64,000 nucleotides of DNA from Phenylobacterium sp. NIBR 498073 (GTDB taxonomy: Bacteria > Pseudomonadota > Alphaproteobacteria > Caulobacterales > Caulobacteraceae): NCBI RefSeq assembly GCF_027286305.1, contig NZ_CP114599.1:1736001-1800000 (forward strand). The letters are read 5' to 3'. Under the pieces are notes generated by a model that searched no databases, was not told the origin of the DNA, and saw only the letters and a program-made list of their open reading frames with translations. Numbering within the stretch: position 1 is the first letter of the stretch; each line of letters begins with the position of its first letter. The position numbers were made by a program, and so were the translations under genes. Below, in pieces: positions 36,999 to 60,070 of the stretch.

Positions 36999-37013
36999 TC
37001 GAACGGAGTTTCA
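36999..37013. promoter_or_regulatory. Island palindrome copy 1
   Basis: TCGAACGGAGTTTCA, with the flank shared with other copies (reverse strand begins TTGTGAAAC). It is 151 bp upstream of the MFS gene at 37164. Confidence 0.6.
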
Positions 37014-37047
37014 CAAGCGCTCTGGCGGGGGAATTCTGATCGGATTG

Positions 37048-37062
37048 TCGAACGCAATTCGA
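37048..37062. promoter_or_regulatory. Island palindrome copy 2
   Basis: TCGAACGCAATTCGA, arms TCGAA/TTCGA; 102 bp upstream of the MFS gene and 49 bp from copy 1. Confidence 0.6.
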
Positions 37063-37163
37063 ATCCGCGAGATGTACGGCGGCGGCAGCAGCGGCTGATC
37101 CGAACATTTGGCGCACGCGACAAGGGCACCTGAGCCCCATGACGTGGCCTGGGGGGAGTTTGG

Positions 37164-38432
37164 ATGGGTGATTTGACTAGCGCCGGTGGGGTGAGCCAGT
37201 CGGCGAGAGGCTCGGCGCCGCGCCAGGCCGCCTTCGGCTTCATCTTCGCGTCGGCTCTCATGAACTCGATCTCGTTCGGGATCATGCTGCCGATTGTTCC
37301 AAACCTTATTCGGGAGCTGGCCGGCGGCGACACTTCGTCGGCATCTGAGTGGAACGTGCTCTTCGCGACCAGCTGGGGTGTGATGCAGCTCTTTTGCGGG
37401 CCGCTCCTCGGCATGCTGTCCGATCGGATTGGGCGGCGGCCGGTGCTGTTGATCTCATTCTTCGGGCTCGGCTTGGACTTCCTTCTCATGGCCTATGCGC
37501 CGAACCTTTGGTGGCTGCTCGCCGGACGGCTGCTCAATGGCGCGACGGCGAGCACGATGTCGACCGCCAACGCCTATCTCGCCGATGTCACACCGCCAGA
37601 TCAGCGCGCCAAGACCTTTGGCCTGATGGCATCAGCCTTCTCCATCGGCTTCATCGTGGGGCCGATGATCGGGGGGCTACTGGGCGAGTACGGGCTGCGA
37701 CTACCGTTCATTGCCGCGGCCGTCATTACCTTCGCCAATGCGATCTATGGCCTGCTCGTTTTGCCGGAGTCGCTGCCGAAGGAGCGACGCGCCAAACGGT
37801 TTGAGTGGGGCCGGGCCAATCCGCTGGGCGCCTTGAGGCTGCTCCGCTCGCACTCGGACCTGCTTCCTCTCGCGGGCGTGGCTTTTCTCTTCCAGCTTTC
37901 TCAAATGGTCCTGCCCACGATCTATGTCCTCTACACCGCCCACCGCTACGGTTGGTCGACCGGCATGGAGGGCGCCGCTTTTCTGCTGATCGGGGTTCTT
38001 GGGGTCTTTGTTCAGATGGTCCTGGTCGGGCCCGTCGTCGCTCGGATTGGCTTGAGGAACGCCATCTTGCTCGGGGCTGTATCCGGCGCGGCTTGCTATG
38101 CCTGGTACGGCGCCATGGCGAACGGATGGGTGTTCCTGGTTGGCGCGGCTCTGCAGGCGCTGCAGGGATTCCTGATGCCTGGTCTACAGGGGCTCATGAC
38201 CCGCTTGGTCCGGCCAGAGGAGCAGGGCCAGTTGCAGGGCGCCAATCAAAGTATGATGGGTGTCGCTTCGATCGCCGGGCCGATGATCTTTGGGATGGTG
38301 TTCGCTTGGTCAGTTCGCCACGAGACCATCTCATCGATTCCAGGGCTGGCCTTCTACGTGGCGTCGGGCCTCATGGTCGCTGCCGTCTTGCTGGCCTTCT
38401 GGAAGGCGCAACCTCCTGAGAAGGAAGCCTAG
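37164..38432 (+). CDS. MFS transporter, TetA-like (DHA1) drug/metabolite exporter
   Basis: A 422-residue twelve-span transporter. The inter-helix loop motif GMLSDRIGRRPVLL and the motif GFIVGPMIGGLLG, which marks antiporters, place it in the DHA1/TCR branch. GGGGGAG precedes the ATG. Two palindrome copies lie upstream. Export of a toxic intermediate or of the substrate itself is plausible in a hydrocarbon-type catabolic island, but specificity cannot be read from sequence. Confidence 0.9.
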   Translation: MGDLTSAGGVSQSARGSAPRQAAFGFIFASALMNSISFGIMLPIVPNLIRELAGGDTSSASEWNVLFATSWGVMQLFCGPLLGMLSDRIGRRPVLLISFFGLGLDFLLMAYAPNLWWLLAGRLLNGATASTMSTANAYLADVTPPDQRAKTFGLMASAFSIGFIVGPMIGGLLGEYGLRLPFIAAAVITFANAIYGLLVLPESLPKERRAKRFEWGRANPLGALRLLRSHSDLLPLAGVAFLFQLSQMVLPTIYVLYTAHRYGWSTGMEGAAFLLIGVLGVFVQMVLVGPVVARIGLRNAILLGAVSGAACYAWYGAMANGWVFLVGAALQALQGFLMPGLQGLMTRLVRPEEQGQLQGANQSMMGVASIAGPMIFGMVFAWSVRHETISSIPGLAFYVASGLMVAAVLLAFWKAQPPEKEA

Positions 38433-38461
38433 GGACGAGGGCGGCCGCATTGCGACGGCTC

Positions 38462-38713
38462 TCAGCTGAGGCCGGCGAGAAGTTGCTTGCACTTGTCTCT
38501 CAGCACCCCGTCGTGGGGCCGCGTGGCCAGCCAATCGCTGAAAGCGATGATCCTGGCTTCCTGGGCGGGCGACCAAGTCTCGACCCGCATCAACAGCGTC
38601 AGTATGGCCTGTGCGCGCTCACGGGGGGAGGGGGCGCTTGGCAGCGTGCGGCAAAGGCTCTTGGCCTCGACCATGGCATGGTGACGCGGGGACATCTTGT
38701 TGCTGTGGATCAT
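38462..38713 (-). CDS. Small hypothetical protein, about 77-83 aa
   Basis: The frame from ATG 38713 (or ATG 38695) encodes a mostly helical protein with segments SPRERAQAILTLLMRVETWS and PAQEARIIAFSDWLATRPHD. Composition is protein-like, whereas the further upstream extension of the frame is not. No ribosome site is clear for either start. It converges on the MFS gene. No function is recognised. Confidence 0.5.
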   Translation of the reverse strand: MIHSNKMSPRHHAMVEAKSLCRTLPSAPSPRERAQAILTLLMRVETWSPAQEARIIAFSDWLATRPHDGVLRDKCKQLLAGLS

Positions 38714-39265
38714 TGGTTGGCGGGGAAGCGCTCTTGTGCGTGGAACACGGAACTCAACGCAAGATGCAGAGCTCGGGGGCCCTTGGCAGAAGAAGGGCGC
38801 GGTCCCCGCCGTGAATGGCGGGCACCGCGCCCCGGGACTGGAAAGAAAACTACTAAAGTACGCGAACGCGTGAGTGCCGTTCACCGTTAATGAAAGTGCG
38901 CGGGAGACGCTCGCGCAGGTGGGTTGAAACGCCTCGAACGGCTTTCGAAAATAGGAACATTGAAACCGTTGCGGAGGCAGTCGGGCGGCTGACGAGAAGC
39001 TGATCGGCTGTCTGCGTTGAAGAGCGCGTCTCAAATCACTTCGCGGCCCTGCTCGTTGCACGCGTCGACATCTGGCGCTGATCCAGGCAAGTGGAAGGCG
39101 AATTGCGGCAGCGGGACGAGCTAGCCGTGCATGCGGATGGCGCGCCGCGCGCCAAATTACCGCGCAGATGGTGCGTCGAGCCCCACTATCCCGTCCTCGC
39201 CTCCGGATTTCGTAGTTTCTCGCATCTGATTGTGTTCGAGGACCCACTGGCGGGGCGTTTCGATC
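38714..39265. other. Gene-free stretch
   Basis: No credible coding frame. It contains one palindrome copy at 38934 and a nearby half-like repeat (TTGAAACG at 38924). The rest shows nothing recognisable. Confidence 0.5.
38934..38948. promoter_or_regulatory. Island palindrome copy 3
   Basis: TCGAACGGCTTTCGA, arms matching at six of seven positions. It is about 220 bp upstream of the leftward small gene and has no close rightward gene. Confidence 0.55.
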
Positions 39266-39661
39266 ATGCCAACCCTTCGGCGTACGGACTTCGCGTGGGA
39301 ATTCCTGCGCCGCAACGAGCGCTACCGTCGGCATGCATCTAGCGGATGCGCCGATCTTGGCAAGCTGCCCGGGGGCGGACCCAAGCCTGGGGAGGGGCCG
39401 ACCAAAGAACAGAGGGACGCTGGGTACTTCGACCTGCTCTTCATTGGAACCAGCGACGATGGCCGAAAGGTGCGGGTATCCGTCAAGGGCGACAAGGATC
39501 CGGGCTATGGATCAACATCCAAGATGCTCGCCGAGACCGCCATCTGTCTGGTGAACTCCACTGAGACGCCCGGTGGAATATGGACGCCTGGGGCCGCACT
39601 CCGGGGCAAGTTGATCTCGCGTCTGGAAGAGCACGCCGGCGTGAAGTTCGAGGTCGAGTAA
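39266..39661 (+). CDS. Chimeric protein: DUF6499 N-terminus joined to saccharopine dehydrogenase-like C-terminus
   Basis: A 131-residue frame. Residues 1-24 (RTDFAWEFLRRNERYRRHA) match the DUF6499 domain that starts many plasmid- and island-borne regulator-like proteins. From about residue 55 on, KGDKDPGYGSTSKMLAETA and the later PGGIWTPGAALRGKLI resemble the extreme C-terminus of saccharopine dehydrogenase-like oxidoreductases, with the whole N-terminal NAD domain missing. It is most likely the scar of a recombination event, and probably non-functional in either role. Both family assignments are from memory of the motifs. Confidence 0.6.
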   Translation: MPTLRRTDFAWEFLRRNERYRRHASSGCADLGKLPGGGPKPGEGPTKEQRDAGYFDLLFIGTSDDGRKVRVSVKGDKDPGYGSTSKMLAETAICLVNSTETPGGIWTPGAALRGKLISRLEEHAGVKFEVE

Positions 39662-39679
39662 CAACGGGAACTCGTTGTC

Positions 39680-39711
39680 GAAATGGGGGCAGGTTGACCT
39701 GGCCCCATTTC
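39680..39711. terminator. Bidirectional hairpin between convergent genes
   Basis: A 15-bp stem with one mismatch and a two-base loop, arms GAAATGGGGGCAGGT and ACCTGGCCCCATTTC. It sits between the stops of the chimeric gene and the ferredoxin reductase gene. Confidence 0.7.
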
Positions 39712-39727
39712 ACTAGCTTTGGCGCGC

Positions 39728-40960
39728 CTATTCGGCGACTTCGGTCATCGGGATGCTGATGTCCGCAAGCCTTCCCTTGTTAACGGGACGTCGCCCACCG
39801 ATCAGGTTCTTGCCCATCATGAACTCGGGAGGAGAATTGAGGGCTTCGACCGCTTGGACCAGGTTCTCCTTGAGGTGGAAGACTGCGAACCTGCCGGACT
39901 GCGGGTCACCCCGAACGACCAAGTCGTCGACGTCGAAGGGGTAGCCAGCGATCTGCAGCTTCAGATCGTACTGGTCCGACCACTGCCACGGCGTCTCTGC
40001 TCGCGGCGGGGCGCGGCCGGTAATCGCGGCGGCCGCCTGTTTGGCCTGCTCAAGGGCGTTTGGAACGCTCTCCAGGCGGAAGTTCCGGTTATAGAGGGGC
40101 AATGGACGCTGAGTGACATCGCCGATAGCGAAGATGTCGGGATCGCTCGTCCGCGCTTCGAGATCGACGATGATGCCCCGGGCGCAGTCGAGCCCTGCTT
40201 CGGAGGCGATCTCCTGATTGGGAGCAGCTCCGATGCCTACGACCGCGATGTCGCACGGAAGGGTTCGGCCATCGGTCAGAACAACGGCTTCCACTCGACC
40301 ATTCCGGCCCACAAAGGCCTCAGCGCTGCAGCCGACTTCGAAGCGCACGCCCTTGCGTTGATGATAGTCGGTGAAGAAGTCTGACAACGCCTCGCTGGCG
40401 ACCCGAGCCAGGACGCGTGGTTCGCGCTCGATCACGACGACCTCAACGCCAAGGCTCCGTCCGGAAGCGGCGACCTCAAGACCGACGTAGCCGCCGCCAA
40501 TCACAACCATCGTCTTGCCTGGAGCTAGCGAAGCCTTCAGGCCCTCGGCGTCCTCGGCCGTCCGCAAGAACCGGACCCCCGCCAGGTTGGCGCCTTGGAT
40601 CGGGAGGGCGATGGGGCGGGCGCCGGTCGCGATGACGAGCGTGTCGTAGGGGATGACCCAGCCGTCGGCGCAGTCGATGAGCTTGTCGGCGCGATGAATG
40701 CGCACGGCCCTGGTGCTGCTGTGAAAGGTAATGTCGTTCTCGGAATAGAATTCCAAGGGCCTGAGCGCGAGGCTCTCGGCGTCCGCTTCGCCTTTCAGCC
40801 AGGCCTTGGAGAGCGGCGGCCGTTGGTACGGGGGAATGGGTTCGTCTCCGATGAGAACGATTGGCCCCTTGTGTCCGTACTGCCTCAGTAGGGCCGCGCA
40901 GGCGCCGCCCGCGTGCCCCGCCCCTAGGATCGCGACTCTCGCAGCTGAATGGTCACACAT
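39728..40960 (-). CDS. NAD(P)H-dependent FAD ferredoxin reductase for P450
   Basis: A 410-residue flavoprotein of the putidaredoxin-reductase type, passing electrons from NAD(P)H to a 2Fe-2S ferredoxin. The FAD motif is VAILGAGHAGGACA, the NAD motif VVIGGGYVGLEVAA, and the second FAD motif DIFAIGDV. The segment PYQRPPLSKAWL is typical of the class. The start at 40960 has GGGGGACAG upstream. No P450 is adjacent, but the CYP153 gene (45.7 kb) and the ferredoxin (51.3 kb) complete a class I chain. A palindrome copy lies 162 bp upstream. Confidence 0.92.
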   Translation of the reverse strand: MCDHSAARVAILGAGHAGGACAALLRQYGHKGPIVLIGDEPIPPYQRPPLSKAWLKGEADAESLALRPLEFYSENDITFHSSTRAVRIHRADKLIDCADGWVIPYDTLVIATGARPIALPIQGANLAGVRFLRTAEDAEGLKASLAPGKTMVVIGGGYVGLEVAASGRSLGVEVVVIEREPRVLARVASEALSDFFTDYHQRKGVRFEVGCSAEAFVGRNGRVEAVVLTDGRTLPCDIAVVGIGAAPNQEIASEAGLDCARGIIVDLEARTSDPDIFAIGDVTQRPLPLYNRNFRLESVPNALEQAKQAAAAITGRAPPRAETPWQWSDQYDLKLQIAGYPFDVDDLVVRGDPQSGRFAVFHLKENLVQAVEALNSPPEFMMGKNLIGGRRPVNKGRLADISIPMTEVAE

Positions 40961-41121
40961 TCTGTCCCCCAAAGACTCGAGCGGATGGGTAATATTACGA
41001 CGTGGTATTGTCTTCCAACCAAAACGTAAAATCACTCCCTACATGTTCATTTCAGTGGCTGGCGAGCAGTTGCCAGCCACCGCAGTCAGTCGAGTTCCGG
41101 GGCGTGCCAATTCGACGCTTT

Positions 41122-41136
41122 TCGAATGTTGTTCGA
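41122..41136. promoter_or_regulatory. Island palindrome copy 4
   Basis: TCGAATGTTGTTCGA, arms TCGAA(T/C)/TTCGA. Upstream of the leftward ferredoxin reductase gene. Confidence 0.65.
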
Positions 41137-41158
41137 TCCCGCCTGCTAGCCCGGCTCG

Positions 41159-41383
41159 GTGAACGAGCACCAACGCAACCTGTGGGACGCAATGATCCAG
41201 TTCCGACTCTGTTTCCTGACGGCGAGCGATCACCTTGCGGATGCGATCGACCTGCCGATGCCCTCGCTGGAGGCGGCGATCGAGCACGCTGAGGGTCTTG
41301 CTGATGGTCGGCGCATGGAGCTTTGGCGGGACGCTGAGCGAATGAAGCTGTGGCCGGCAGGCCGCGCCGAACCCGCTGCCTAG
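41159..41383 (+). CDS. Possible small hypothetical protein, 74 aa
   Basis: Frame from a GTG at 41159, with fairly natural composition (LADAIDLPMPSLEAAIEHAE) and moderately GC-rich third positions. There is no ribosome site and no recognised family; it may be spurious. A palindrome copy ends 23 bp before its start. Confidence 0.3.
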   Translation: MNEHQRNLWDAMIQFRLCFLTASDHLADAIDLPMPSLEAAIEHAEGLADGRRMELWRDAERMKLWPAGRAEPAA

Positions 41384-41458
41384 GTTCGCTCGGTCCACAC
41401 GAGCGAGCTGAAACGCGAGCCCTGCACCCAGCGCAGGAAATGGGCGTTCGACCAGTTG

Positions 41459-41473
41459 TGGAACGTCGTTCGA
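41459..41473. promoter_or_regulatory. Island palindrome copy 5
   Basis: TGGAACGTCGTTCGA, identical over 15 bp to copy 7 at 52751 and sharing the left flank TTG. It is 241 bp upstream of the GPH transporter gene. Confidence 0.7.
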
Positions 41474-41713: not shown

Positions 41714-43141
41714 ATGACCAAGGCTGCTTCAGCCCGCTCCTCCCAGGTGCCCTTGCTCACCGCATTGGCCTTCGCCGCTGTCAGTCTGCCGGTCGCGGCG
41801 GTGGGCATCGCGATGTCGGTCTACCTGCCACGACACTTCGCCAGCCACTTGGGCGTGGACTTGGCGGTCATCGGCTCGGCCTTCTTCATTGTCCGCATGA
41901 TCGATATTCCCATTGACGGCCTTCTTGGCTGGTCGATGGACAAAACCCGCACGCCGCTCGGCCGCTATCGCCTCTGGACGATCCTGGGCGCGCCTATCCT
42001 GATGCTCGGGGTGTACTTCCTCTTTATGCCCCCCGAAGGCGTCGGCCGGACCTACCTAATCTTCTGGCTCCTCGTTCTCTATCTGGGCAACTCGATCCTA
42101 GCGCTCTCGCATGCAGCATGGGCGGCGACGCTTGCGCCCCACTACAATGATCGCTCGCGGGTCTTCGGCATCATCGCGGCGATCAGCGTTCTGGGCGCCG
42201 CCAGCGTCTTGGCGATTCCGATCGTCAACGAGGCGCGAGCAGTGTCCGACGTCGGCAACGTGGCGATGATGGGCTGGCTCATTATCCTGCTTGCGCCCAT
42301 TACGGTCGCGCTCGTCGTCTGGCGAACGCCAGAGAAGATCGCCCCCGAGGTGGATGGGGAGGGCTTTCGGTTGCGCGACTACGGCGCGCTGATCGCGCGG
42401 CCGTCGTTCGCGCGAATCCTCCTGGCGGACCTTTGCTTGGCGCTGGGGCCGGGCTGGATGAGCGCAACCTATCTGTTCTTCTTCACCGACAGTCGAGGGT
42501 TCACGACGGGGCAGGCGAGCATTCTGCTCGCGATCTACATCCTGGCTGGGATTGTCGGGGCGCCGCTGATGGGGCGGCTCGCAATGAAGATTTCAAAGCA
42601 TCGCGCGGTGATGGTCGCCACCACCTGCTATTCGCTGACGCTCATCTCACTGATCGCGATCCCTCAGGGGAATTTGGCGGTGGCCGCCATTCCGCTGGTG
42701 TTCGCTGGAATCATGGCCTCCGGGTTCAACGTGCTGACTCGCGCGATGACCGCTGACATCGCCGACGAGATCCGCCTGGAGAAGGGTAAGGAACGGTCCG
42801 GCCTGCTCTATGCGATCACCACGATGACCACCAAGGTGGCCGGCGCTTTTTCCATCGGGCTCACCTTCCTGGTCCTTTCCCAGGTCGGCTACAACGCCGC
42901 CGATGGCGCACAAAATACGGCGCACGCCATCAGAAACCTTGAGCTGGTGTTCCTGGTGGGGCCTGTCGTGTTCGTGATGTTGGGCGGGGCCTGCATGATT
43001 GGCTACGGCCTCGGAGCCGAGCGGCATGCTGAAATCCGTCGCCAGCTAGATGAGCGCGATGCGCTATTCGATCAGCCCCCGATCCTCGAGAGCGTGACGG
43101 CGGAAGCCGCGGTCGCCGTTCCACCTCCATCCAAGACATGA
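41714..43141 (+). CDS. MFS transporter, GPH (glycoside-pentoside-hexuronide:cation symporter) type
   Basis: A 475-residue transporter. The N-terminal segment RMIDIPIDGLLGWSMDKTRT followed by PLGRYRLW is the GPH signature. Other GPH members carry sugars or, in sphingomonads and caulobacters, various organic compounds. GGGGAAG precedes the ATG. Its stop overlaps the start of the histidine kinase (ATGA), which suggests that transport and sensing are coupled. Confidence 0.88.
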   Translation: MTKAASARSSQVPLLTALAFAAVSLPVAAVGIAMSVYLPRHFASHLGVDLAVIGSAFFIVRMIDIPIDGLLGWSMDKTRTPLGRYRLWTILGAPILMLGVYFLFMPPEGVGRTYLIFWLLVLYLGNSILALSHAAWAATLAPHYNDRSRVFGIIAAISVLGAASVLAIPIVNEARAVSDVGNVAMMGWLIILLAPITVALVVWRTPEKIAPEVDGEGFRLRDYGALIARPSFARILLADLCLALGPGWMSATYLFFFTDSRGFTTGQASILLAIYILAGIVGAPLMGRLAMKISKHRAVMVATTCYSLTLISLIAIPQGNLAVAAIPLVFAGIMASGFNVLTRAMTADIADEIRLEKGKERSGLLYAITTMTTKVAGAFSIGLTFLVLSQVGYNAADGAQNTAHAIRNLELVFLVGPVVFVMLGGACMIGYGLGAERHAEIRRQLDERDALFDQPPILESVTAEAAVAVPPPSKT

Positions 43142-45521: not shown

Positions 45522-45619
45522 TCCAATCTTCTACATCAAGCCGAGCCAGCGGTCAGGCCATGCCAGCGGCGGCTCGTAGGGCAGGCGGCCGAAGGGGCTG
45601 TCGCCGCCCTTCACGCTAA

Positions 45620-45635
45620 GTCAATCGACGTTGAC
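45620..45635. promoter_or_regulatory. Inverted repeat GTCAA-N6-TTGAC, candidate TetR operator
   Basis: GTCAATCGACGTTGAC lies between the divergent TetR and P450 genes, 99 and 103 bp from their starts. It differs from the island palindrome family, which is absent from this promoter region. Confidence 0.5.
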
Positions 45636-45737
45636 ATGTGAGCGATTGAGGAACACCGTCGTGGAAGAAGATCAAGAAACGAGGTGCGAGCTGCTGCTCA
45701 TCCTTTCGGGCGGCCGACCGCGAACGGGAGGAACACC

Positions 45738-47024
45738 ATGAACATTGCAGCCAAGATCCAGGCCGCTGACGCTGCCGCCGAGATCGCCGCCATGCCGCTT
45801 GAGCAGCTCAACCCCGCCAAGGTCTCTCGCTTCTACGACGACACGATCTGGCCGGTGTTCGAACGCCTGCGCCGCGAGGATCCAATCCACTTCACGCCCG
45901 ACAGCGAGTACGGCCCATACTGGTCGATTACCAAGTGGACCGACATCATGGCGGTCGACACCAATCATGAAGCCTTCTCGTCCGCCGACGGCATCACGCT
46001 GATCAATCAGGAGGCCATGGCCGAACAGATCAAGATCATGGGAGAGCGGCGTCGCGGCGGCGCCGGGTTCATTACGATGGATGAGCCCCAGCACAGCTTT
46101 GCGCGCAAAGCGGTCAGTCCGACGCTGGCGCCGAGCAATCTGCACGCGATGGCTCCGCAAGTTCGTGAGCGGGCAGGTCAGATCCTCGACTCCCTGCCGA
46201 TCGGCCAGGAGTTCGATTGGGTCGACCTGGTGTCGAAGGAACTGACGGCTATGACCCTGGCCACCCTGTTCGACTTCCCGTTCGAGCAGCGGCGAAAGCT
46301 GCCCTGGTGGTCCGACATGATCATGAATCAGCCCGGCCACGGCCCCGTTGAGACGTGGGAACAGAAGGGCGCGGCGATGTTCGAATGTTTCAACGCATTC
46401 CATGAACTCTGGAACGAGCGGGTCAATTCAGAGCCGCGCGGCGACTTGATCTCGATGCTGGCGCACAATCCGGCGACCCGGGACATGCCGATGGAGACCT
46501 ACCAGGGCAACGTCATCCTGCTGATCGTCGGCGGCAACGACACCACCCGCAACACAATCTCGAGCAGCGTGCATGCGCTGAACCAAAATCCCGATCAATA
46601 CGCCAAGCTGCGCGCCAACCCGGACCTGATCCTCTCGATGGTGTCCGAAACCATCCGGTGGCAGACTCCGCTGGCGCACATGGCCCGGGTCGCGACGCGC
46701 GACGTTGAGATGGGCGGCAAGACCATCAAGAAGGGCGACCGGGTGGCCATGTGGTACATCTCGGGCAATCGCGACGATGAGTTCATCGAGCGACCCAACG
46801 AATTCATCATCGACCGCGAGCGGCCCCGCCAGCACATGTCGTTCGGCTTCGGCGTCCATCGCTGTGTCGGCAACCGCGTGGCCGAGATGCAGCTGACCAT
46901 CATCTGGGAAGAAATCCTCAAGCGCTTCCCTGAGATCAAAGTGGTCGGCGAACCGGTCCTGAACTGGTCGGCCTTCGTTCATGGCTACGAGACCTTGCCG
47001 GTGATCATCCCTTACCGGACCTAA
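45738..47024 (+). CDS. Cytochrome P450, CYP153 family (alkane/terminal hydroxylase type)
   Basis: A 428-residue soluble P450. The haem-thiolate C376 is in SFGFGVHRCVGNR, the I-helix oxygen motif is VGGNDTTRN (265-272) and the ExxR motif is E304-R307. Long stretches (YGPYWSITKWTDIMAV, EFDWVDLVSKELT, LATLFDFPFEQR, LISMLAHNPATR) match CYP153 enzymes, which hydroxylate the end carbon of alkanes, fatty acids or cyclic and terpenoid hydrocarbons using NADH, ferredoxin reductase and ferredoxin. GGGAGGA precedes the ATG at 45738. The redox partners are 5 kb away on either side. Confidence 0.93.
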   Translation: MNIAAKIQAADAAAEIAAMPLEQLNPAKVSRFYDDTIWPVFERLRREDPIHFTPDSEYGPYWSITKWTDIMAVDTNHEAFSSADGITLINQEAMAEQIKIMGERRRGGAGFITMDEPQHSFARKAVSPTLAPSNLHAMAPQVRERAGQILDSLPIGQEFDWVDLVSKELTAMTLATLFDFPFEQRRKLPWWSDMIMNQPGHGPVETWEQKGAAMFECFNAFHELWNERVNSEPRGDLISMLAHNPATRDMPMETYQGNVILLIVGGNDTTRNTISSSVHALNQNPDQYAKLRANPDLILSMVSETIRWQTPLAHMARVATRDVEMGGKTIKKGDRVAMWYISGNRDDEFIERPNEFIIDRERPRQHMSFGFGVHRCVGNRVAEMQLTIIWEEILKRFPEIKVVGEPVLNWSAFVHGYETLPVIIPYRT

Positions 47025-50308: not shown

Positions 50309-51091
50309 ATGGTGATGTTGCAAGGAAAAGCGACCGCGCATCAGGAGGCTGGTTCTCGCTTCGAGCCGCACGAGGGTGCGCCCGACTGGATCGCCCGGTC
50401 TGGCGGCGCGCACGACTTCAATGCGGTTGCAACCCCAGCTGATGATCAACCCAGCGCATTGATGCGCGGAGCCAAGGGCCGGGCCAAGCACCTCTCGCTC
50501 GAGGTGAACAATCTCAAGTCCAGAGCTGTGGCCGCTGCCGAGAAAATTCTAGCAAGCCAGGGCGTGGAAGATCTGAACCTGCGCGCGATCGCCGATCTGG
50601 CGGGCATCGGCATCGCCTCAATGTACCACTACTTCGGTAGCAAGGACGATTTGCTGCTACATCTGGCTGTCCGCGGATTTGACCACCTGCACCGTGAAAT
50701 GATCCGGCTGCAGAGCGATCCGGACTTCGGCTCGTCGATGCGTGCGGGGGGACGAGCCTTTGTAGACTTCGCTTGCGCGCAGCCGGCGCTTTTCTCGTTA
50801 ATGTTCAATTCGCGCCTCCTCGCACGTCACGAAGTCCTGCGTGCGGCCGAAGCGCGGGCCCTACATGCCTACGAGGCGGCCGTGCAGGCTGATGATCGCA
50901 TTCCACGCGAGCACCAGTCGAACGCGACCCTTGCGATCTGGGCGCTCGGACGCGGGATCGCCGGAATAATCTCATCGCAACCGGCTGATCAATGCGCGGC
51001 CGCGCTCACTCAGCGCCTGTTTGCGGGCGCTGCGTTTCTGCTGGACCACGCCCAGCTGGCAATCGCGAGCGATGCTGGACCTGCGCGATAG
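50309..51091 (+). CDS. TetR family regulator A (paralogue pair)
   Basis: A 260-residue regulator with an unusual ~65-residue N-terminal extension before the helix-turn-helix [19 protein letters not shown]. The ligand domain closely resembles that of the TetR at 51738 (shared FSLMF, AYEAAV, DDRIP-like, IWALGRG and RLFAGAA segments). The two flank the ferredoxin gene. Start ATG 50309 has GTGAGGG upstream; ATG 50315 is an alternative. A candidate binder of the island palindrome. Confidence 0.88.
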
Positions 51092-51227: not shown

Positions 51228-51269
51228 AGCCTTTCAACCCTCCCTGACCTATTAGGAAAGGAGGAACGA

Positions 51270-51590
51270 GTGCCTAAGCTCATCTACCAGATTTTTGGCG
51301 GCGAAACCCGTGAAGTGGAGGTTCCGGATGGGACCAGCGTCATGGAAGGCGCCGTGCGAAATGGGGTGCCGGGGATCGATGGAGACTGCGGCGGCGCCTG
51401 CGCCTGCGCGACCTGCCACGTCTATGTCCCGGACGCCTGGCTCGAGAAGCTCGAACCCCAATCGGAGATGGAGCGCAGCATGCTTGAGTTTGCGGAAAAC
51501 GTGACCCCCAACTCTCGGCTGGGCTGTCAGATCAAGCTCGTCGGCAGCCTCGACGGCCTGGAACTGATGCTGCCGGAAAGCCAACACTAG
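51270..51590 (+). CDS. 2Fe-2S ferredoxin (adrenodoxin/putidaredoxin type)
   Basis: A 106-residue electron carrier between the FAD reductase and the P450. Cluster ligands are C40, C46 and C49 (C-x5-C-x2-C) and C86 (RLGCQI). The start is GTG 51270 with a strong AAAGGAGGA site. It sits alone between two paralogous TetR genes, unlike the usual ferredoxin-next-to-P450 order. Confidence 0.95.
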
Positions 51591-51737: not shown

Positions 51738-52532
51738 ATGAGCCGCCGAATTGGACCGCGGAGCGCTGCCGAAGACCGTGCGCAGCCTAGGCCGTGGGCC
51801 TTCCCAATGACCGATGCGACGGGGCCGATCAACGGCTCCCCAGCAGTGCGGCCCAATCACGCCGGCCAGGGATCGAACGCCGTGGCCCCCAAGCCTATCG
51901 GAACGCGATCGGCGGGTCCCCGCAATGCCCGTGAACTGTCTGTCTGGGTCAGAACGATGAAGACGCCAAAACCTTCCCACGAAGTCGGAAGCCTGAAGGC
52001 CAAGGCGCTGCGCGCCGCAGCCAAGGTATTGTCCGAGCGGGGGGTGGAGAAGCTGAACCTTCGGGCCATCGCAGTCGCGGGCGGTATCGGCGCCGCCTCG
52101 ATGTATCACTACTTCGCCAGCAAGGACGATCTGCTCTTAAACCTGGCCATCCAAGGCTTTGCCGACCTGCGCGCCGACATCATGTCTCTTCAGTCGGACG
52201 ATGAGTCCCCAATCCGTGGCGGGGCGCGGGCCTTCTTCGGGTTTGCTCAGGAAAACCCAGAACTCTTTTCGCTCATGTTCGACGAACGGCTGATGTCGCG
52301 ACATGAGAGCCTGCGGCACGCCGAGCACGAGTCTTTCCTGGCGTATGAAGCTGCGGTCGTAGCCGACCATCGCATTCCTGCGCAGCACAAGTCCGTCGCC
52401 GCTTTTGCGCTTTGGGCTCTGGGCCGTGGCATGGCGGCGACCATGTCGTCGTATCCAGACGGCCGCCCGCCAGACGACGTGCTCGAGAAGCTCTTCGCTG
52501 GCGCGGCCTACCTTGTTTACCATCCGGAGTAG
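51738..52532 (+). CDS. TetR family regulator B (paralogue pair)
   Basis: A 264-residue regulator related to the one at 50309; helix-turn-helix RAIAVAGGIGAASMYHYFAS. The ATG at 51738 has a strong GGAGGGAGCG site and gives a 73-residue N-terminal extension of unknown role; an internal ATG at 51957 would give a standard-length TetR. It precedes the acyl-CoA dehydrogenase pair. With its paralogue it is a candidate for recognising the island palindromes. Confidence 0.88.
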   Translation: MSRRIGPRSAAEDRAQPRPWAFPMTDATGPINGSPAVRPNHAGQGSNAVAPKPIGTRSAGPRNARELSVWVRTMKTPKPSHEVGSLKAKALRAAAKVLSERGVEKLNLRAIAVAGGIGAASMYHYFASKDDLLLNLAIQGFADLRADIMSLQSDDESPIRGGARAFFGFAQENPELFSLMFDERLMSRHESLRHAEHESFLAYEAAVVADHRIPAQHKSVAAFALWALGRGMAATMSSYPDGRPPDDVLEKLFAGAAYLVYHPE

Positions 52533-52855: not shown

Positions 52856-54058
52856 ATGGCGGATTTCGGCGGCACTGATTTGGACGCCTTCCGGGCCGAA
52901 GCGAAGGCTTGGCTTGCTGAGAACTTTCCAGCAGAGCTTGGTGCGTCGCCGGCGACGCACACCGAGGCGTTCAATGGCGCGGGTCAGCTGACCGAGGTGC
53001 AGGCGTCATGGAAACGCCTCATGGGCGAGAAGGGCTGGGGCGTTCCGACCTGGCCCAAGGCCTATGGCGGCGGCGGGCTGTCGCCGCAGGAGGCCCGCGT
53101 TCTGGCGCAGGAGATGGTCAAGATCGGTGCGATGAATCCGATCATGGGCATGGGCATCTCGATGTTCGGTCCCACGCTGCTTGAATACGGCTCCGAAGAG
53201 CAGAAGCTGAAGTACATTCCCGATATCGCCACCGGTAAGGTCCGTTGGTGCCAGGGCTTCTCGGAGCCCGGCGCGGGCTCCGATCTTGCGAGCCTGCAGA
53301 CCAAGGCGGAGGACAAAGGCGACCACTGGATCGTCAACGGTTCGAAAATCTGGACCAGCGGCGCCCAGTACGCGGACATGATCTTTTGCCTGGTGCGCAC
53401 TGACCAGGCCAAGAAGCATGAAGGCATTTCCTTTGTGCTGTTCTCCATGCACCAGCCCGGCGTCGAGATCCGGCCCATCAAGCTCATCGCGGGCAATTCG
53501 CCCTTCTGCGAGACCTTCTTCACCGACGTGAAGGTCTCCAAGGAGGATCTGGTGGGGCCGCTGAACGGCGGTTGGTCGGTGGCCAAGCGTCTGCTGCAAC
53601 ACGAACGCAGCGGCATGAACAGCGCCCGCGGCGGCTCGGGTGAGCCGCTTGGGGTCACCGCCAAGCGCTACATTGGGGCTGATGACGCCGGCCGCCTGTC
53701 CGACAGTGACCTGCGCACCCGCATTGTCATGAACGAAATGGAGGCCCGGACGGTCCAGCAGACGGTCCAGCGCGCCGCGTTGGAATCAAAGGCCAACGCC
53801 GGCCCGTCAGCGGCGACCTCGATCATGAAGAACGCCTTCATGAAGGTGGCTCAGGACCGCGCAGAACTGACCCTCGAGTTCATGGGGCACCAGGGTCTTG
53901 GCTGGGAGGGCGAGGCCTTCTCGAGCGAGGAACTCTCAACGGTTCGGTCGTGGCTGTCTGGAAAGGCCGGCTCCATCTACGGCGGCTCGAACGAAGTGCA
54001 GAACAACATCATTTCCAAGCGCATCCTCGGCCTGCCTGAAATGGGCCAGGGCGCGTGA
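52856..54058 (+). CDS. Acyl-CoA dehydrogenase (first of pair 1)
   Basis: A 400-residue FAD enzyme for alpha,beta-dehydrogenation of acyl-CoA. It shows QGFSEPGAGSDLASLQT and a C-terminal IYGGSNEVQNNIISKRILG. Where MCAD-type enzymes have the catalytic Glu in YEG, this has YGG, so its base must lie elsewhere or in a partner. It is followed after 42 bp by a second dehydrogenase gene; such pairs encode alpha2beta2 enzymes in steroid and related catabolism. An upstream palindrome ties it to the island regulon. Confidence 0.92.
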   Translation: MADFGGTDLDAFRAEAKAWLAENFPAELGASPATHTEAFNGAGQLTEVQASWKRLMGEKGWGVPTWPKAYGGGGLSPQEARVLAQEMVKIGAMNPIMGMGISMFGPTLLEYGSEEQKLKYIPDIATGKVRWCQGFSEPGAGSDLASLQTKAEDKGDHWIVNGSKIWTSGAQYADMIFCLVRTDQAKKHEGISFVLFSMHQPGVEIRPIKLIAGNSPFCETFFTDVKVSKEDLVGPLNGGWSVAKRLLQHERSGMNSARGGSGEPLGVTAKRYIGADDAGRLSDSDLRTRIVMNEMEARTVQQTVQRAALESKANAGPSAATSIMKNAFMKVAQDRAELTLEFMGHQGLGWEGEAFSSEELSTVRSWLSGKAGSIYGGSNEVQNNIISKRILGLPEMGQGA

Positions 54059-54100
54059 TCGTCAGAACAACCACAGAATTTCGAGAATAGGATTTTAGAC

Positions 54101-55237
54101 ATGGCCGTTCTGAACGAAGAACAGAGCATGCTCCGCGACGCAGCCAAGAGCTGGGTCCAGGAAAAGAGCCCGGTCACCGCCTTCCGCAAGATGCGCGACT
54201 CCGGCGTCGAGCTCGGCTACGACGCCGCCGCCTGGAACGAGCAGGCTGAAATGGGTTGGGCCGGGGTCATCATCCCGGAAGACTTCGGCGGGTCGAACTT
54301 CGGCTACCTGTCGATGGGCCTGATCCTTGAGGAAATGGGCCGCACGCTCACCGCCTCGCCGCTGCTGGCCTCGGGCCTGGCCGCCGCCAGCGCCCTGATC
54401 CTGGGCGGCAACGACGCCCAGAAGGGCGAGTACCTGCCCAAGATCGCCGACGGTTCGCTGGTCGCCACCCTGGCGGTCGACGAAGGCGCCCACCACGCCC
54501 CGGAAAAGGTCGCGCTGGAAGCCAAGACGTCGGGCGCCGGCTACGTCCTGAACGGCAAGAAGACCTTCGTGCTCGAAGGTCCGGGCGCCGGCCTGTTCGT
54601 GGTTTCGGCCCGCACCAGCGGCAAGCCGGGCGACAAGGACGGCATCTCGCTGTTCCTGGTGGCCGCCGACGCCAAGGGCGTGACCAAGCAGAACCTGAAG
54701 CAAGCCGACAGCCGCGGCGTGTCGAACGTCTCGTTCGACAACGTCGAAGTCGGCGCCGACGCCCTGCTGGGCGCCGAAGGCAAGGGCTGGGACGTGCTTG
54801 AGGCCACCCTCGATCGCGCCCGCGCCGGCCTCGCCGCCGAAATGCTCGGCGCCGCCGTGCAGGCCTTCGAAACCACCCTGGACTACCTGAAGGTCCGCGT
54901 TCAGTTCGGCCAGGTCATCGGTTCGTTCCAGGCCCTGCAGCACCGCGCGGCCAAGATGTTCACCGACCTGGAACTGGCCCGCTCGGCCGTCGAAGCCGCC
55001 CTGGCGGCGATCGACGCCGGCAGCCCGGACGTGCCGGAGCTGGTCTCGCTGGCCAAGGCCAAGATGGGCGACGTGTTCCACCTCGTCTCCAACGAAATGG
55101 TCCAGATGCATGGCGGCATCGGCATGACCGACGCCCACGACGCGGGCTTCTACCTGAAGCGCGCCCGTGCGGCCGAAGCGGCCTACGGCAGCCAGTCGTA
55201 CCATCGCGACCGTTACGCCCGCATCCAGGGCTACTAA
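54101..55237 (+). CDS. Acyl-CoA dehydrogenase (second of pair 1)
   Basis: A 378-residue acyl-CoA dehydrogenase fold protein. The middle domain is shortened and the C-terminal MHGGIGMTDAHDAGFYLKRA is the form seen in the partner subunit of heteromeric enzymes. It probably pairs with the preceding gene product. Codon use is almost uniformly GC at third positions, unlike nearby TetR genes. Confidence 0.91.
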   Translation: MAVLNEEQSMLRDAAKSWVQEKSPVTAFRKMRDSGVELGYDAAAWNEQAEMGWAGVIIPEDFGGSNFGYLSMGLILEEMGRTLTASPLLASGLAAASALILGGNDAQKGEYLPKIADGSLVATLAVDEGAHHAPEKVALEAKTSGAGYVLNGKKTFVLEGPGAGLFVVSARTSGKPGDKDGISLFLVAADAKGVTKQNLKQADSRGVSNVSFDNVEVGADALLGAEGKGWDVLEATLDRARAGLAAEMLGAAVQAFETTLDYLKVRVQFGQVIGSFQALQHRAAKMFTDLELARSAVEAALAAIDAGSPDVPELVSLAKAKMGDVFHLVSNEMVQMHGGIGMTDAHDAGFYLKRARAAEAAYGSQSYHRDRYARIQGY

Positions 55238-55250
55238 GACGACCTGAGCT

Positions 55251-56717: not shown

Positions 56718-56900
56718 GCCCCGCGGTCGCTTGGTCAAGGCGGTTTCCCTCGCGGCGTTCGTCGTTTTGCGAGCAGGTGGCCCAAGGTGAAGCGAACTGG
56801 CGTGAGCCCAGTGCGGCGAGTATCCGGCGCCGGACGCCAGCTCTCGCGTGGATAGCGCTACGGGGCCCCAGATAAATCCAGCTGCAAGGGTGAGTAAATA

Positions 56901-56931
56901 CGGCGTCGGGCGGAAAGGCCGCCCGACGCCG
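56901..56931 (-). terminator. Terminator of TonB receptor gene
   Basis: Perfect 13-bp stem CGGCGTCGGGCGG/CCGCCCGACGCCG with a 5-nt loop just past the receptor stop; the reverse strand continues TATTTAC. Confidence 0.75.
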
Positions 56932-56937
56932 CAGTTG

Positions 56938-59520
56938 CTAGAAGCGATACTGGAACTCGATCCCGTAGGTCCGCGGGAAGATCAGCGTGACCTGGCGGCG
57001 GGCGCCGACCGCAGAGACCCCTGAGGGGCTCGCAGTCGAGCTGCCAAAGCCGACCTCGTCGGTGACGTTTTTCACAAAACCGATGACGGTGAAGCGGTCG
57101 TCGGAATCGCGCCACAGAGCCCGCAGATCGCCAGTGGTGAACGACTCGGTCCTGTAGATCGGGTTGTTGAACAACGTCGACGACTGCGGATCGATATAGG
57201 TCGCGGTGCCGCTGAAGGTGAGGGTGCCCGCATCGAGTTCGAAGCGGTAGTTCGCCCCGAGCGTCACCTTGTTTTCCGGCGACAGCGGCAAGTCGTTGCC
57301 CACGACCGACTGGGCCACACGTCCACCTGGGGCCGGCGCCGCAGGCTGAGCGCCTGGGGTCGTCGCGAACGGGTCCGCCGTGTCGACGAAACAGCAGCCG
57401 GTATCAAGCTCGGTGTTCAGATAGGCGTAGTTGAGCATGATCTGCAGATTGTCGATCGGGGCCCATTGGCTCTCCAGCTCGAAACCCCAGATGGTGGCGT
57501 CGAGATTGAGGAACTGGGTGGCGGTGATCGTGCCGAGCGGGACGGTCAACGGCGCCTGGAAGCCCTTGTAGTCAGTATAGAACAGCGCAGAGTTGATCTG
57601 AAGACGGCCTGCGAAGGTCTTCTTGGCGCCAAGCTCGTAGGAGTTGACGTACTCAGGGTCGGCATAGGGATCTGGGGACAGGCCGTTGGCCCCAAGCCAG
57701 CCGCCCGACTTATAGCCGCGGGAGTAGCGCAGGTAGATGTTGGTGTCGGGCTCCGGCTCCCACTGCACGCCGAGCGTGCCGGTAAGCGCATCCCAATCCC
57801 CCGAGAGATCACGGCGCAGGCCGCCGGTCGGATTGGCCACCAGGTTGGCGGTGAGGGGATTGGCTGCGCAGGACGCGATCGTCGTTCCACCACACACTTG
57901 CTGGGTGGTCAGGTCGACCGCGAAGCCCTGGGCCACGGCCGGCGGTGCGGCCGCGCCAAAGGCTAGGGCCAGGGTCGGGATACGAGCCACATACCGCGCG
58001 ATGTCGTAGCCGGTCTTCTCATCATAGGTGTAGCGAAGGCCGGCCGTGAGCGTCCAGGTGTCGGCGAACTTCCAGTCCATTTGCCCAAACGCGGCATAGG
58101 ACTTGGTTTCCAGATGGCCATCAACCGAGACGAACGCGCCGCGATCGTTGCGCTGTGAGGGGGTCCCCTGCAGGCTCAGCGGGGTGAACATGGCCGGATC
58201 TCCGACCACGCGAATGCCCTGCGGCTGATCGTACTCTTGATAGTACTGGTAGAGGCCGACGATCCAGTTCAACGCTCCGTCGCTGTTGGACGAAAGGTTG
58301 ATCTCGTTCGAGTACCAGCTCTGGCGCTCTTCATAGAAGGTCCGAGCGTCCGTCGACACGCCGGTCGCGGTGAAGGCGGGAAGTGGGCCGGGGCCGTCGA
58401 GGTCGACGAGGATATTCCGCGTCGCGGTCTGCGGCGTTCCGTCGGAATCGGTCGAGGTATTGTAGTCGTACTGCTGGAAGCCGGCGATGTACTTCAAGGT
58501 CGCCCAGCCGAGGTCGCTTGTCAGGTCGAAGTGAAGCCGATGGTGGTTGTCGAGCGACCCGTAGCTCGGCGCATTGACATTTTGCGTGTAGGGATCGGTA
58601 ACGCCAGGGTTCGGGCTCGTGAAGCCGAACGAGGTGTTATAGTAGAGTGCGCTGGTGCCGATGCCGGTGAGCGACGTCGTGTCGTAGGGTGACAGGTTGT
58701 TGAGCAGCGTATTGCCAACGCCGTAGCTGTCATCCCAATCGAACTTGGTATAGCGCAGACGCGCCACCGTGTTGTCGCCCAGGTCGGCTTCGAGTTGCGC
58801 CTCGAACATCCAGCGGCGGATTTCAGCGGTATCTCTCGCCGGACCGATATTGTTGATGAAGCCCTCGTCGCGGCGTTCCATGTAGCCGCCGACCAGGAAG
58901 CGAAGGTTGTCGGCGATCGGCCCGCTCATCAACCCGTCGAGCCTGTAGCTCTCATAGTTGCCGGCCATGGCGCGAACTTCCGCCTGGAACTCCTCGGTCG
59001 GTCGTTTCGAGACGATATTGATCGTCCCGCCGATCGAGTTGCGTCCATAGAGCGTGCCCTGCGGTCCGCGGAGAATTTCAGTTCGCTCGATGAAGAGGGA
59101 GGGCGTCGAGGAATCGAACATGGAGTTCGAGAAGATGCCGTCCGAATATAGCGCGACACTAGGATCGGTCCCGATGGCGTTGGTCAGGCGGCCAAGCCCG
59201 CGGATCGACATCCGGTCGTTGTTTGTATAGCTCACGCTCGGCGTAATGCGGGCGATGTCTTCGACCGAGTTCACGCCAAGGACATCGCGCTTCTCGCTCG
59301 TATAGGCTGAGACGGCGACGGGGACGTCCTGAAGGCTTTGTTCTCGCTTCTCAGCGGTCACGACCAATTCTTCGATCATGTTGCTGGACGAACCTGAGGC
59401 CTCCTGCGCCAACGCTGGACCGGTCGCGAGCGCGCCGATCACGATGGCCGAGGCGCCGCAGACCAACGCGTCCCGAAGGCGACAAGGCAATGCCAGGCGC
59501 AAATGCGCTCTGTTAGTCAT
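56938..59520 (-). CDS. TonB-dependent receptor (island)
   Basis: An 860-residue outer-membrane receptor. The signal peptide is long (about 38 residues, ending ALAQE). The TonB box is IEELVVTAEKRE, the plug motif ILRGPQGTLYGRNSIGGTIN, the barrel motif SRGYKSGGWLGAN, and the protein ends FQYRF. GGGAGGA precedes the ATG. A palindrome copy lies 55 bp upstream. It is the probable entry route for the hydrophobic substrate of the island pathway, an inference. Confidence 0.95.
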   Translation of the reverse strand: MTNRAHLRLALPCRLRDALVCGASAIVIGALATGPALAQEASGSSSNMIEELVVTAEKREQSLQDVPVAVSAYTSEKRDVLGVNSVEDIARITPSVSYTNNDRMSIRGLGRLTNAIGTDPSVALYSDGIFSNSMFDSSTPSLFIERTEILRGPQGTLYGRNSIGGTINIVSKRPTEEFQAEVRAMAGNYESYRLDGLMSGPIADNLRFLVGGYMERRDEGFINNIGPARDTAEIRRWMFEAQLEADLGDNTVARLRYTKFDWDDSYGVGNTLLNNLSPYDTTSLTGIGTSALYYNTSFGFTSPNPGVTDPYTQNVNAPSYGSLDNHHRLHFDLTSDLGWATLKYIAGFQQYDYNTSTDSDGTPQTATRNILVDLDGPGPLPAFTATGVSTDARTFYEERQSWYSNEINLSSNSDGALNWIVGLYQYYQEYDQPQGIRVVGDPAMFTPLSLQGTPSQRNDRGAFVSVDGHLETKSYAAFGQMDWKFADTWTLTAGLRYTYDEKTGYDIARYVARIPTLALAFGAAAPPAVAQGFAVDLTTQQVCGGTTIASCAANPLTANLVANPTGGLRRDLSGDWDALTGTLGVQWEPEPDTNIYLRYSRGYKSGGWLGANGLSPDPYADPEYVNSYELGAKKTFAGRLQINSALFYTDYKGFQAPLTVPLGTITATQFLNLDATIWGFELESQWAPIDNLQIMLNYAYLNTELDTGCCFVDTADPFATTPGAQPAAPAPGGRVAQSVVGNDLPLSPENKVTLGANYRFELDAGTLTFSGTATYIDPQSSTLFNNPIYRTESFTTGDLRALWRDSDDRFTVIGFVKNVTDEVGFGSSTASPSGVSAVGARRQVTLIFPRTYGIEFQYRF

Positions 59521-59574
59521 GGATTGATCCTCCCTTTGAGCGCTCTCTCGGCGCTTGGAATCGAGCAGGAGGCG

Positions 59575-59589
59575 TCGAACAAGGTTCGA
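59575..59589. promoter_or_regulatory. Island palindrome copy 8, TonB receptor promoter
   Basis: TCGAACAAGGTTCGA, arms matching at six of seven positions, 55 bp upstream of the receptor start. Confidence 0.68.
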
Positions 59590-59696
59590 AAACTGATTGT
59601 GGAGGTGAAGGGCGTGTTAACGCCTTCCTCAACGTCAACTGTTGCTGAGTTGCAACGCGGGCGCTCGGGCCCCCGCCGAAAGCTTCATCAAAAGGA

Positions 59697-59721
59697 GCCC
59701 CGCCGATAAATTCGGCGGGGC
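59697..59721 (-). terminator. Leftward hairpin GCCCCGCCGA/TCGGCGGGGC
   Basis: Perfect 10-bp stem with loop TAAAT; the reverse strand continues TCCTTTTGAT. There is no annotated leftward gene that it would end. Confidence 0.5.
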
Positions 59722-59812
59722 CTAGTCGATTGGGGGAAGTCTGGCGTCAGAAGGACCGTCGTCCAGCGCACATGCGAGGGTCGACAGTACGCCGAGGCGC
59801 GAAGAGATGGGC

Positions 59813-59827
59813 TCGAACGGCGTTCCA
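59813..59827. promoter_or_regulatory. Island palindrome copy 9
   Basis: TCGAACGGCGTTCCA; the reverse strand reads TTGTGGAACGCCGTTCGA, the extended form. Confidence 0.7.
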
Positions 59828-59914
59828 CAACACCAATTGACGCAGCGTCAGCCTGACCGCCTTCGGCTGGCCGCATGGCGGAGTTCGCGCCGACGGCGAG
59901 CCGGGGGCAGGCGC

Positions 59915-59947
59915 AAAAAAAAAAAGGGCGAGCGGTTTTGCTCGCCC
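59915..59947 (-). terminator. Intrinsic terminator with 11-T run, leftward, orphan
   Basis: On the reverse strand, GGGCGAGC and GCTCGCCC form an 8-bp stem with a 6-nt loop, followed directly by eleven T. This is the clearest intrinsic terminator in the window, yet no leftward gene lies upstream of it. Confidence 0.75.
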
Positions 59948-59996
59948 AGTCGTCAGCAGGAAGCGCGTTGAAGGCGCCTCGACTATCGGAGAAGTG

Positions 59997-60011
59997 TCGA
60001 ACGCCTTTCGA
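59997..60011. promoter_or_regulatory. Island palindrome copy 10
   Basis: TCGAACGCCTTTCGA, six of seven arm positions paired. Confidence 0.68.
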
Positions 60012-60055
60012 CAAGGTCCGAGACGCTAGCCTGACCTGAGAGGTGCGCAGGCTTG

Positions 60056-60070
60056 TGGAACGCCGTTCGA
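60056..60070. promoter_or_regulatory. Island palindrome copy 11
   Basis: TGGAACGCCGTTCGA with left flank TTG and following A, the extended form also seen in copies 5, 7 and 9. Its centre is 59 bp from copy 10 and it is about 314 bp upstream of the aldehyde dehydrogenase start. Confidence 0.7.

Follow-up and report, generated by a model that had tools for sequence, protein, structure and literature searches.

The DNA analysed here is a 64,000-nucleotide stretch of Phenylobacterium sp. NIBR 498073 (NZ_CP114599.1, forward-strand positions 1,736,001 to 1,800,000; hereafter the window), in which copies of a 15-bp palindrome lie between catabolic genes on a 52.5-kb, dus-associated stretch that was probably acquired (hereafter the island). 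Positions beyond the window are given in window-continued coordinates, for which 55 kb of adjoining right-hand sequence was appended to the window (119 kb in all). A preliminary description had listed eleven intergenic copies in the window; their coordinates proved correct, and 11/11 were intergenic by the gene calls made in this analysis. They are listed below without strand, with scores from a symmetrised 19-column matrix built from 16 sites, namely these eleven and five further copies. ORF denotes open reading frame.

36999..37013: site TCGAACGGAGTTTCA, 5' of the MFS transporter gene 37164 (+); 21.3 bits
37048..37062: site TCGAACGCAATTCGA, 5' of the MFS transporter gene 37164 (+); 22.2 bits
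38934..38948: site TCGAACGGCTTTCGA, within a 1.3-kb gap, no clear target; 22.7 bits
41122..41136: site TCGAATGTTGTTCGA; the ferredoxin reductase ORF 39728-41035 (-) starts 86 bp away; 22.4 bits
41459..41473: site TGGAACGTCGTTCGA with a TTG -35-like element, 5' of the GPH-type MFS gene 41714 (+); 25.1 bits
51213..51227: site TCGAACGCCGTTTCA, 5' of the ferredoxin gene 51270 (+); 24.8 bits
52751..52765: site TGGAACGTCGTTCGA with a TTG -35-like element, 5' of the acyl-CoA dehydrogenase genes 52856 (+) and 54101 (+); 26.1 bits
59575..59589: site TCGAACAAGGTTCGA; the TonB receptor ORF 56938-59520 (-) starts 54 bp away; 24.1 bits
59813..59827: site TCGAACGGCGTTCCA, in the gap between TonB receptor and aldehyde dehydrogenase; 21.2 bits
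59997..60011: site TCGAACGCCTTTCGA, in the same gap; 24.2 bits
60056..60070: site TGGAACGCCGTTCGA with a TTG -35-like element, 5' of the aldehyde dehydrogenase gene; 25.1 bits

The targets named in the preliminary description were borne out, the sites preceding a ferredoxin, a ferredoxin reductase, an acyl-CoA dehydrogenase pair, a TonB receptor, an aldehyde dehydrogenase and transporters; the gap between TonB receptor 56938-59520 and the aldehyde dehydrogenase holds four sites, and MFS gene 37164 is preceded by two. The written consensus, TSGAACGNCGTTCSA, applied only in part: it was exact at four of the 11 sites (41459, 52751, 59813 and 60056), with one mismatch at three and two at four, and the motif is better stated as TCGAAC-N3-GTTCGA, with one half frequently T(G/A)(G/A)AAC. 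Allowing up to two mismatches, 13 places in the window fitted TSGAACGNCGTTCSA, where 1.30 (standard deviation 1.13) would be expected, and 0/100 shuffles reached that count; the remaining two places (57875 and 62801) are in coding DNA. As had been noted, the fifth and seventh copies (41459 and 52751) have identical 15-mers; they lie 11 kb apart. Several copies share an asymmetric extension, TTGTGGAACGNCGTTCGAA, which was found whole at 41459, 52751 and 60056 and, on the reverse strand, short of the final base at 59813. GAAC and GTTC halves also form the LexA boxes of Gram-positive bacteria, where the spacing is 4 and not 3 as at these sites; a LexA-like box was considered on that account.

A matrix built from the 11 sites alone recovered five more right of the window (76435, 82338, 82662, 82680 and 84321) at 18.7-25.2 bits, with the next match at 13.2, giving a total of 16 sites. 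Three of the five lie between TonB receptor 79695-82283 and P450 gene 82870, one before the GMC oxidoreductase gene 76618 and one before the thiolase gene 84432. Under the 16-site matrix all 16 were intergenic and scored 20.9-26.1 bits within the 119 kb, and the runners-up were a match of 13.6 bits overlapping two sites and then one of 12.8 bits in a gene. All 16 sites fall within the 52.5-kb island; the 66.5 kb of flanking DNA that was covered holds no site. The earlier remark that no copy was seen left of 35.3 kb held, the top left-flank match reaching 9.7 bits, in a gene, against at least 20.6 for the 11 sites (11-site matrix). Chance as the source of the sites was rejected from the shuffles and from a third-order Markov model, which predicts 0.068 places of at least 20 bits for 119 kb of sequence and 2.45 for a whole genome.

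The genome (4,289,989 bases, one contig) was scanned by exact pattern, the matrix being applied to the 119 kb. In this pattern-only form of the genome scan that had been proposed, TSGAAYNNNRTTCSA was found exactly at 13 places in 4.29 Mb, 11 of them on the island (binomial p 7e-20). The off-island exact places are 4130528 and 1586881, of which the former is a perfect core-chromosome site between a related TetR gene and a TonB receptor gene, kept in other Phenylobacterium. The idea of an island-specific regulon is thus upheld by 11 of 13 exact places, with the refinement that, given the perfect site at 4130528, the regulon does not lie entirely on the island. Weaker off-island places at 396315 (16.5 bits), 1586881 (19.2 bits) and 2844825 (16.5 bits) were set aside as being at chance level, about 8.9 places of at least 18 bits being expected per genome.

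Two genes in the middle of the island are the candidate readers of the sites:

50462..51091 (+): TetR1, candidate site reader; Pfam TetR_N 2.6e-12 and TetR_C_33 (longer ORF 50309-51091)
51957..52532 (+): TetR2, candidate site reader; TetR_N 2e-12; between sites 51213 and 52751

They are paralogues, 54% identical. The preliminary description had singled out the TetR genes at 50309 and 51738, and these are the right candidates: alone among the island regulators compared, they have relatives recurring beside the site elsewhere. Relatives were sought with TetR2 in 149 family genomes and with an alignment of ten TetRs in 84,980 species genomes (at least 225 relatives, best 80 retained); G codes denote genomes, L codes loci, and G000 is the own genome. 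Plasmid copies of TetR2 were absent from 72,556 records at 1e-15. Members of the TetR1/2 clade have the site nearby in Parvibaculum, Rhodobiaceae and further Caulobacteraceae, where it mostly precedes a CYP153 P450 gene. The TetR gene adjoins CYP153, and the site precedes CYP153, in L052, L055, L056, L057, L060, G111, G047 and G128; in L058 the site precedes a ferredoxin-CYP153 pair with the TetR gene adjoining. G111 carries a 26.8-bit site before the TetR and CoA ligase genes and a 23.1-bit site before its P450 gene, and the sites beside close TetR relatives scored 22.0 bits in G047 and 18.8 bits in G128. Five sites were present in a G088 cluster with a GPH transporter, a TonB receptor and a GMC oxidoreductase, site-preceded relatives of three island targets (85%, 76% and 83% identical, respectively). 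Of nine named loci with at least 42% identity, eight had an intergenic site at most 2.4 kb away (14.8-25.8 bits) among the matches listed; the ninth, L067, was matched over 102 residues only, had no site and belongs to another clade. A second clade, 30-36% identical, has the site between TetR and TonB receptor genes at 14.2-25.2 bits, as seen at 4130528 in the own genome and in G088, G118, L064, L066, L068, L074, L075 and L077.

A match of at least 14 bits lay at most 2.5 kb away in 23 of 43 TetR rows (TetR1 and TetR2 included), against five in 614,979 positions for the rest of the same loci. For 54 distant control loci, mostly from other phyla or classes and of different base composition, matches above 16 bits anywhere were seen in three, of at least 14 bits anywhere in seven, and of at least 14 bits within 2.5 kb in one. 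Mapped on the TetR tree, the presence of the site required 3 changes, compared with a shuffled mean of 14.5 (0/500 shuffles as low), with site-bearing rows amounting to 14/15 in the TetR1/2 clade, 9/10 in the TonB-linked clade and 0/18 among the others. No match above 14 bits was found at four loci where CYP153 is paired with a TetR from a different clade (L061, L062, L067 and L076), nor at L065, where CYP153 is further off; hence the site follows the TetR and not the P450. The TetR-CYP153 pairs of the former four loci probably use a different operator. This co-occurrence of TetR clade and site in many genomes makes an island-specific regulon with a TetR-type reader, as suggested in the preliminary description, the best reading.

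Promoter geometry was assessed on 44 sites oriented towards their genes, one row that merely read an included site again having been dropped, and the counts treat related sequences singly. TTG stood directly 5' of the 15-mer in 17/44 sites, against CAA directly 3' in 3 (p 0.0026); where a site had a single clear target (n=36), the numbers were 14 and 1 (p 0.001). A T was present in 14 of the 17 TTG sites where a -10 box after a 17-bp spacer would end, in a column chosen after viewing the table. The other 27 oriented sites gave no promoter hint. At the roughly one third of sites with this geometry, the asymmetric extension would most simply be a -35 element that is continuous with the operator, which would then lie over the -35/-10 spacer, which would suit repression by promoter occlusion.

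We therefore consider it probable, on sequence grounds, that the palindromes are operators of TetR1, TetR2 or both, encoded mid-element on this island beside dus, and that they control a catabolic regulon. A homodimer would hold both halves of TCGAAC-N3-GTTCGA, and at many promoters these halves would cover the -35 element and the -35/-10 spacer, blocking RNA polymerase. The substrate, or an acyl-CoA derived from it, would probably be the ligand that frees the repressor and so turns on together uptake (TonB and MFS), hydroxylation by CYP153 and its two electron-transfer partners (ferredoxin, reductase), the oxidation of alcohols and aldehydes, and some of the beta-oxidation genes. The AlphaFold model of TetR2 (mean predicted local distance difference test, pLDDT, 87.6) is an all-helical TetR fold of 10 helices. 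Foldseek returned 293 PDB matches at E<=0.001, led by TetR-type regulators with FasR best, and its top 50 included FasR, FadR, BkaR and KstR at 14-22% identity, from which the ligand does not follow. The TetR fold of these structures is like that of TetR2, and FasR and FadR were, by their titles, solved with acyl-CoA, which may serve as a hint at the ligand only.

Several points weigh against this assignment. Close relatives of TetR2 are few (4/149 family genomes at E<1e-50, own included), and a class-wide search for its orthologues in 385 genomes (cut-off 1e-35, no more than 8 candidates scored in each) returned the own genome only. The named L loci came from a scan with one recognition-helix peptide pattern. 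The 43 rows contain near-copies (L073 and G118b share a contig; G118core is nearly identical to L074), TetR1 and TetR2 are site-bearing by construction, and the 14-bit threshold was set after the loci had been scored. L057, L058, L066, L075 and L077 passed narrowly at 14.2-15.6 bits, and in L058 the best match is in a gene, its intergenic match scoring 15.3 bits. One row in each site-bearing clade, G000t3 and G088b, had no site within 2.5 kb; the G000t3 neighbourhood has a weak 12.9-bit match 51 bp before the TonB receptor gene. On the island, the 16-site matrix gave no site at CYP153 gene 45738, at the operon 62077-66635 or in the 67-75 kb stretch.

The alternative that survives best, though we rate it as rather unlikely, is that the regulators activate instead of repress, or that TetR1 and TetR2 share the sites with different ligands. 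Two paralogues 54% identical on one island fit a division of ligands, and FasR, the best Foldseek match, is named an activator by NCBIfam; against activation, the operator lies over the -35 element and spacer, a usual position for a repressor, where TTG is present (17/44 oriented sites only). It is distinctly unlikely that the sites serve another regulator, be it an island TetR (44886-, 48561+ or 75632+), a double TetR (68304- or 71231+) or a host protein. Such a reading draws on these five further TetR-type genes of the island and on the absence of a site directly before the start of either TetR1 or TetR2. It is countered by the tree, on which the site is tracked by TetR1/2 relatives, and by 34 loci at which homologues of 44886, 48561 and the double TetRs were never the best match at E 1e-15, the query being without 75632 and non-TetR host regulators. 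A repetitive extragenic palindromic (REP)-type or other repeat with no regulatory role, to which the partly symmetric sequence and the identical 15-mers 11 kb apart might point, is very improbable, since the exact TSGAAYNNNRTTCSA places number 13 and not many across the genome, 11/13 are on the island, the site flanks differ, and matches precede CYP153 and TonB receptor genes in other species.

The two apparent double TetRs were also considered for a second motif; the gaps 69456-69672, 70882-71230 and 72425-72668 held no common palindrome, only one 10-mer common to two of the three, inverted. That at 68304-69455 (-; L005:6304-7455, 383 aa) has a single passing TetR_N (residues 203-249), which follows a TetR C-terminal domain, and that at 71231-72424 (+; L005:9231-10424, 397 aa) has two passing TetR_N stretches and matches Mce3R (PDB 9b7y, E 1.1e-7). 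Both adjoin acyl-CoA dehydrogenase genes, with no motif copies nearby. Mce3R is a double TetR of mycobacteria whose binding site is non-palindromic (PMC11667970). A third TetR of the TetR1/2 clade, 49% identical to TetR2, was seen at G000:C1:1630727-1634287, adjoining a TonB receptor 77% identical to the first receptor of the island; the weak 12.9-bit match stands 51 bp before that receptor.

Beyond control by TetR1 and/or TetR2, a shared operator code is possible but tentative: a resident TonB receptor-TetR circuit of Phenylobacterium and mobile catabolic islands would use one operator, with the two paralogues, perhaps responding to different ligands, reading the 16 island sites and the core site as a two-input switch for the catabolism of hydrophobic substrates. 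An arriving island might then join the host uptake circuit at once, a corollary we hold equally tentatively.

TetR regulons over many catabolic genes are of a known kind. In mycobacteria, one TetR-type repressor, KstR, governs a large lipid-degradation regulon (PMC1995591), and the regulon proposed here resembles it in TetR-type control, but has AAC-N3-GTT in place of AAC-N2-GTT and CYP153 in place of CYP125. The KstR operator TNNAACNNGTTNNA, a motif taken from the preliminary description that appears as a term in PMC1995591, was not found at the sites, which have three-base spacing. The KstR likeness drawn earlier holds for the general TetR kind but not beyond it: orthology was rejected, TetR1 scoring 23.1 bits on the NCBIfam KstR model against a cut-off of 280 and TetR2 not being listed at 0.001. 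CYP153 operons of Alcanivorax and Dietzia are controlled by CypR (AraC/XylS), listed as an activator (PMC8784404); CypR and TetR1/2 are both linked to CYP153 genes but differ in protein family. As on the island, a TetR-like gene adjoins the CYP153 cluster of Mycolicibacterium chubuense NBB4, where an AraC homologue was held to be the regulator and the text consulted gives no operator, and AlkX of Dietzia is, as supposed for TetR1/2, a TetR repressor of an alkane hydroxylase, acting on alkW1X, but the enzyme is AlkB-type and the system actinobacterial (PMC8784404). No TetR operator for alphaproteobacterial CYP153 was found in the literature searched, which lay mostly outside subscription journals, and as far as that literature goes the operator, the TetR subfamily and the link with CYP153 and TonB receptors are new. 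Since the CYP153 control described in the literature searched is by AraC-type activators, the sites offer a testable operator and candidate regulator for alphaproteobacterial CYP153 clusters. If binding is true, the site could predict the induced genes and aid the search for the substrate.

The main cargo genes are:

37164..38432 (+): MFS transporter
39728..41035 (-): ferredoxin reductase
41714..43141 (+): GPH-type MFS transporter
45738..47024 (+): cytochrome P450, CYP153 type; closest in PDB 3rwl, CYP153A7, E=1.4e-159; no site 5'
51270..51590 (+): 2Fe-2S ferredoxin
52856..55237 (+): two acyl-CoA dehydrogenase genes
56938..59520 (-): TonB-dependent receptor (first)
60366..61820 (+): aldehyde dehydrogenase
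Window-continued 73948 (+): CoA ligase
Window-continued 76618 (+): GMC oxidoreductase, site 5'
Window-continued 79695-82283 (-): second TonB receptor, by likeness of its translation to the first receptor only
Window-continued 82870 (+): second P450, best match to many CYP153 genes of other loci
Window-continued 84432 (+): thiolase, site 5'

The island further encodes an alcohol dehydrogenase, a MaoC-type pair, and six acyl-CoA dehydrogenases and three MFS transporters in all; each of two thiolase-like genes is followed by a gene for a ChsH2-type OB protein. This content suggests that a hydrophobic compound, which may be alkane-, terpenoid- or sterol-like, is taken up, hydroxylated terminally and degraded by beta-oxidation. 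CYP153 substrates include alkanes, limonene and others (PMC8784404). Sterol side-chain catabolism with CYP125 was the first idea from gene content and was rejected, the tested P450 being of CYP153 type and not CYP125; no substrate is therefore assigned. The thiolase/ChsH2 set is reminiscent of sterol side-chain enzymes. The gap between TetR gene 44886 (-) and the first CYP153 gene (45522-45737) lacks the motif, and thus the first P450 may answer to another regulator. The hybrid histidine kinase ORF at 43138-44889 in the window starts within the last 4 bases of the GPH transporter gene and is thus possibly co-translated.

The borders of the island were placed from a 17-bp direct repeat and a neighbouring integrase gene:

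35336..35352 (+): island left end, 17-bp direct repeat within a 5' dus-like stub; second copy at window-continued 87798-87814
Window-continued 86577-87644 (-): tyrosine integrase, Phage_integrase 7.6e-25, 153 bp from the dus gene 87798 (+)

The repeats at 35336 and 87798 thus delimit an element of about 52.5 kb. The left stub reads MQTEHRDSYRLSVAPMMDWTEFA and then ends, its last 29-42 bp being 86-94% identical to the dus 5' regions of six relatives, and G+C is 0.61-0.67 on the island versus 0.65-0.73 in the flanks (2-kb steps), barring one step at the left border. The tyrosine integrase adjoining dus and the direct repeats in dus 5' sequence at both ends are like those of dusA-specific genomic islands, which carry the integrase gene beside dus and direct repeats at both ends within dus; the repeat is 17 bp and exact here, unlike the 21-bp semiconserved one there (PMC4482086). 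An apparently mobile element would carry the regulator along with its operators as one complete regulon, and almost every strong site in the genome lies on that element. In two relatives, G191 (C6, 362-396 kb) and G168 (C1, 3-48 kb), the dus and marR flanks are separated by about 30 and 41 kb of unrelated DNA. Searched with the island proteins, that DNA gave distant matches only (25-36% identity), and the integrase had no match in it at 1e-20, so this cargo is absent there. The left-hand similarity to both stops at 35221-35231, some 105-115 bp short of the repeat, and the right-hand similarity extends about 118-153 bp into the DNA preceding dus. An empty, uninterrupted insertion site was looked for in the relatives and none was found. 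From these two near relatives, the dus/marR interval looks like a variable place in the genus.

Among minor features, the window-continued ORF 67132-68295 (+) encodes a protein of citrate-synthase type whose N-terminal part matches HTH_17 weakly, below the Pfam cut-off. Two remnant-like ORFs, lie at 39269-39661 in the window and at window-continued 86047-86448; one has a partial Trans_reg_dom match and the other a LysR substrate-domain match below the Pfam cut-off. The ORF at window-continued 78497-79573 (+) encodes a SIR2-like protein, also below the Pfam cut-off, with a 36% identical relative (L052:15212-16090) in a Caulobacter locus, close to its TetR-CYP153 pair.

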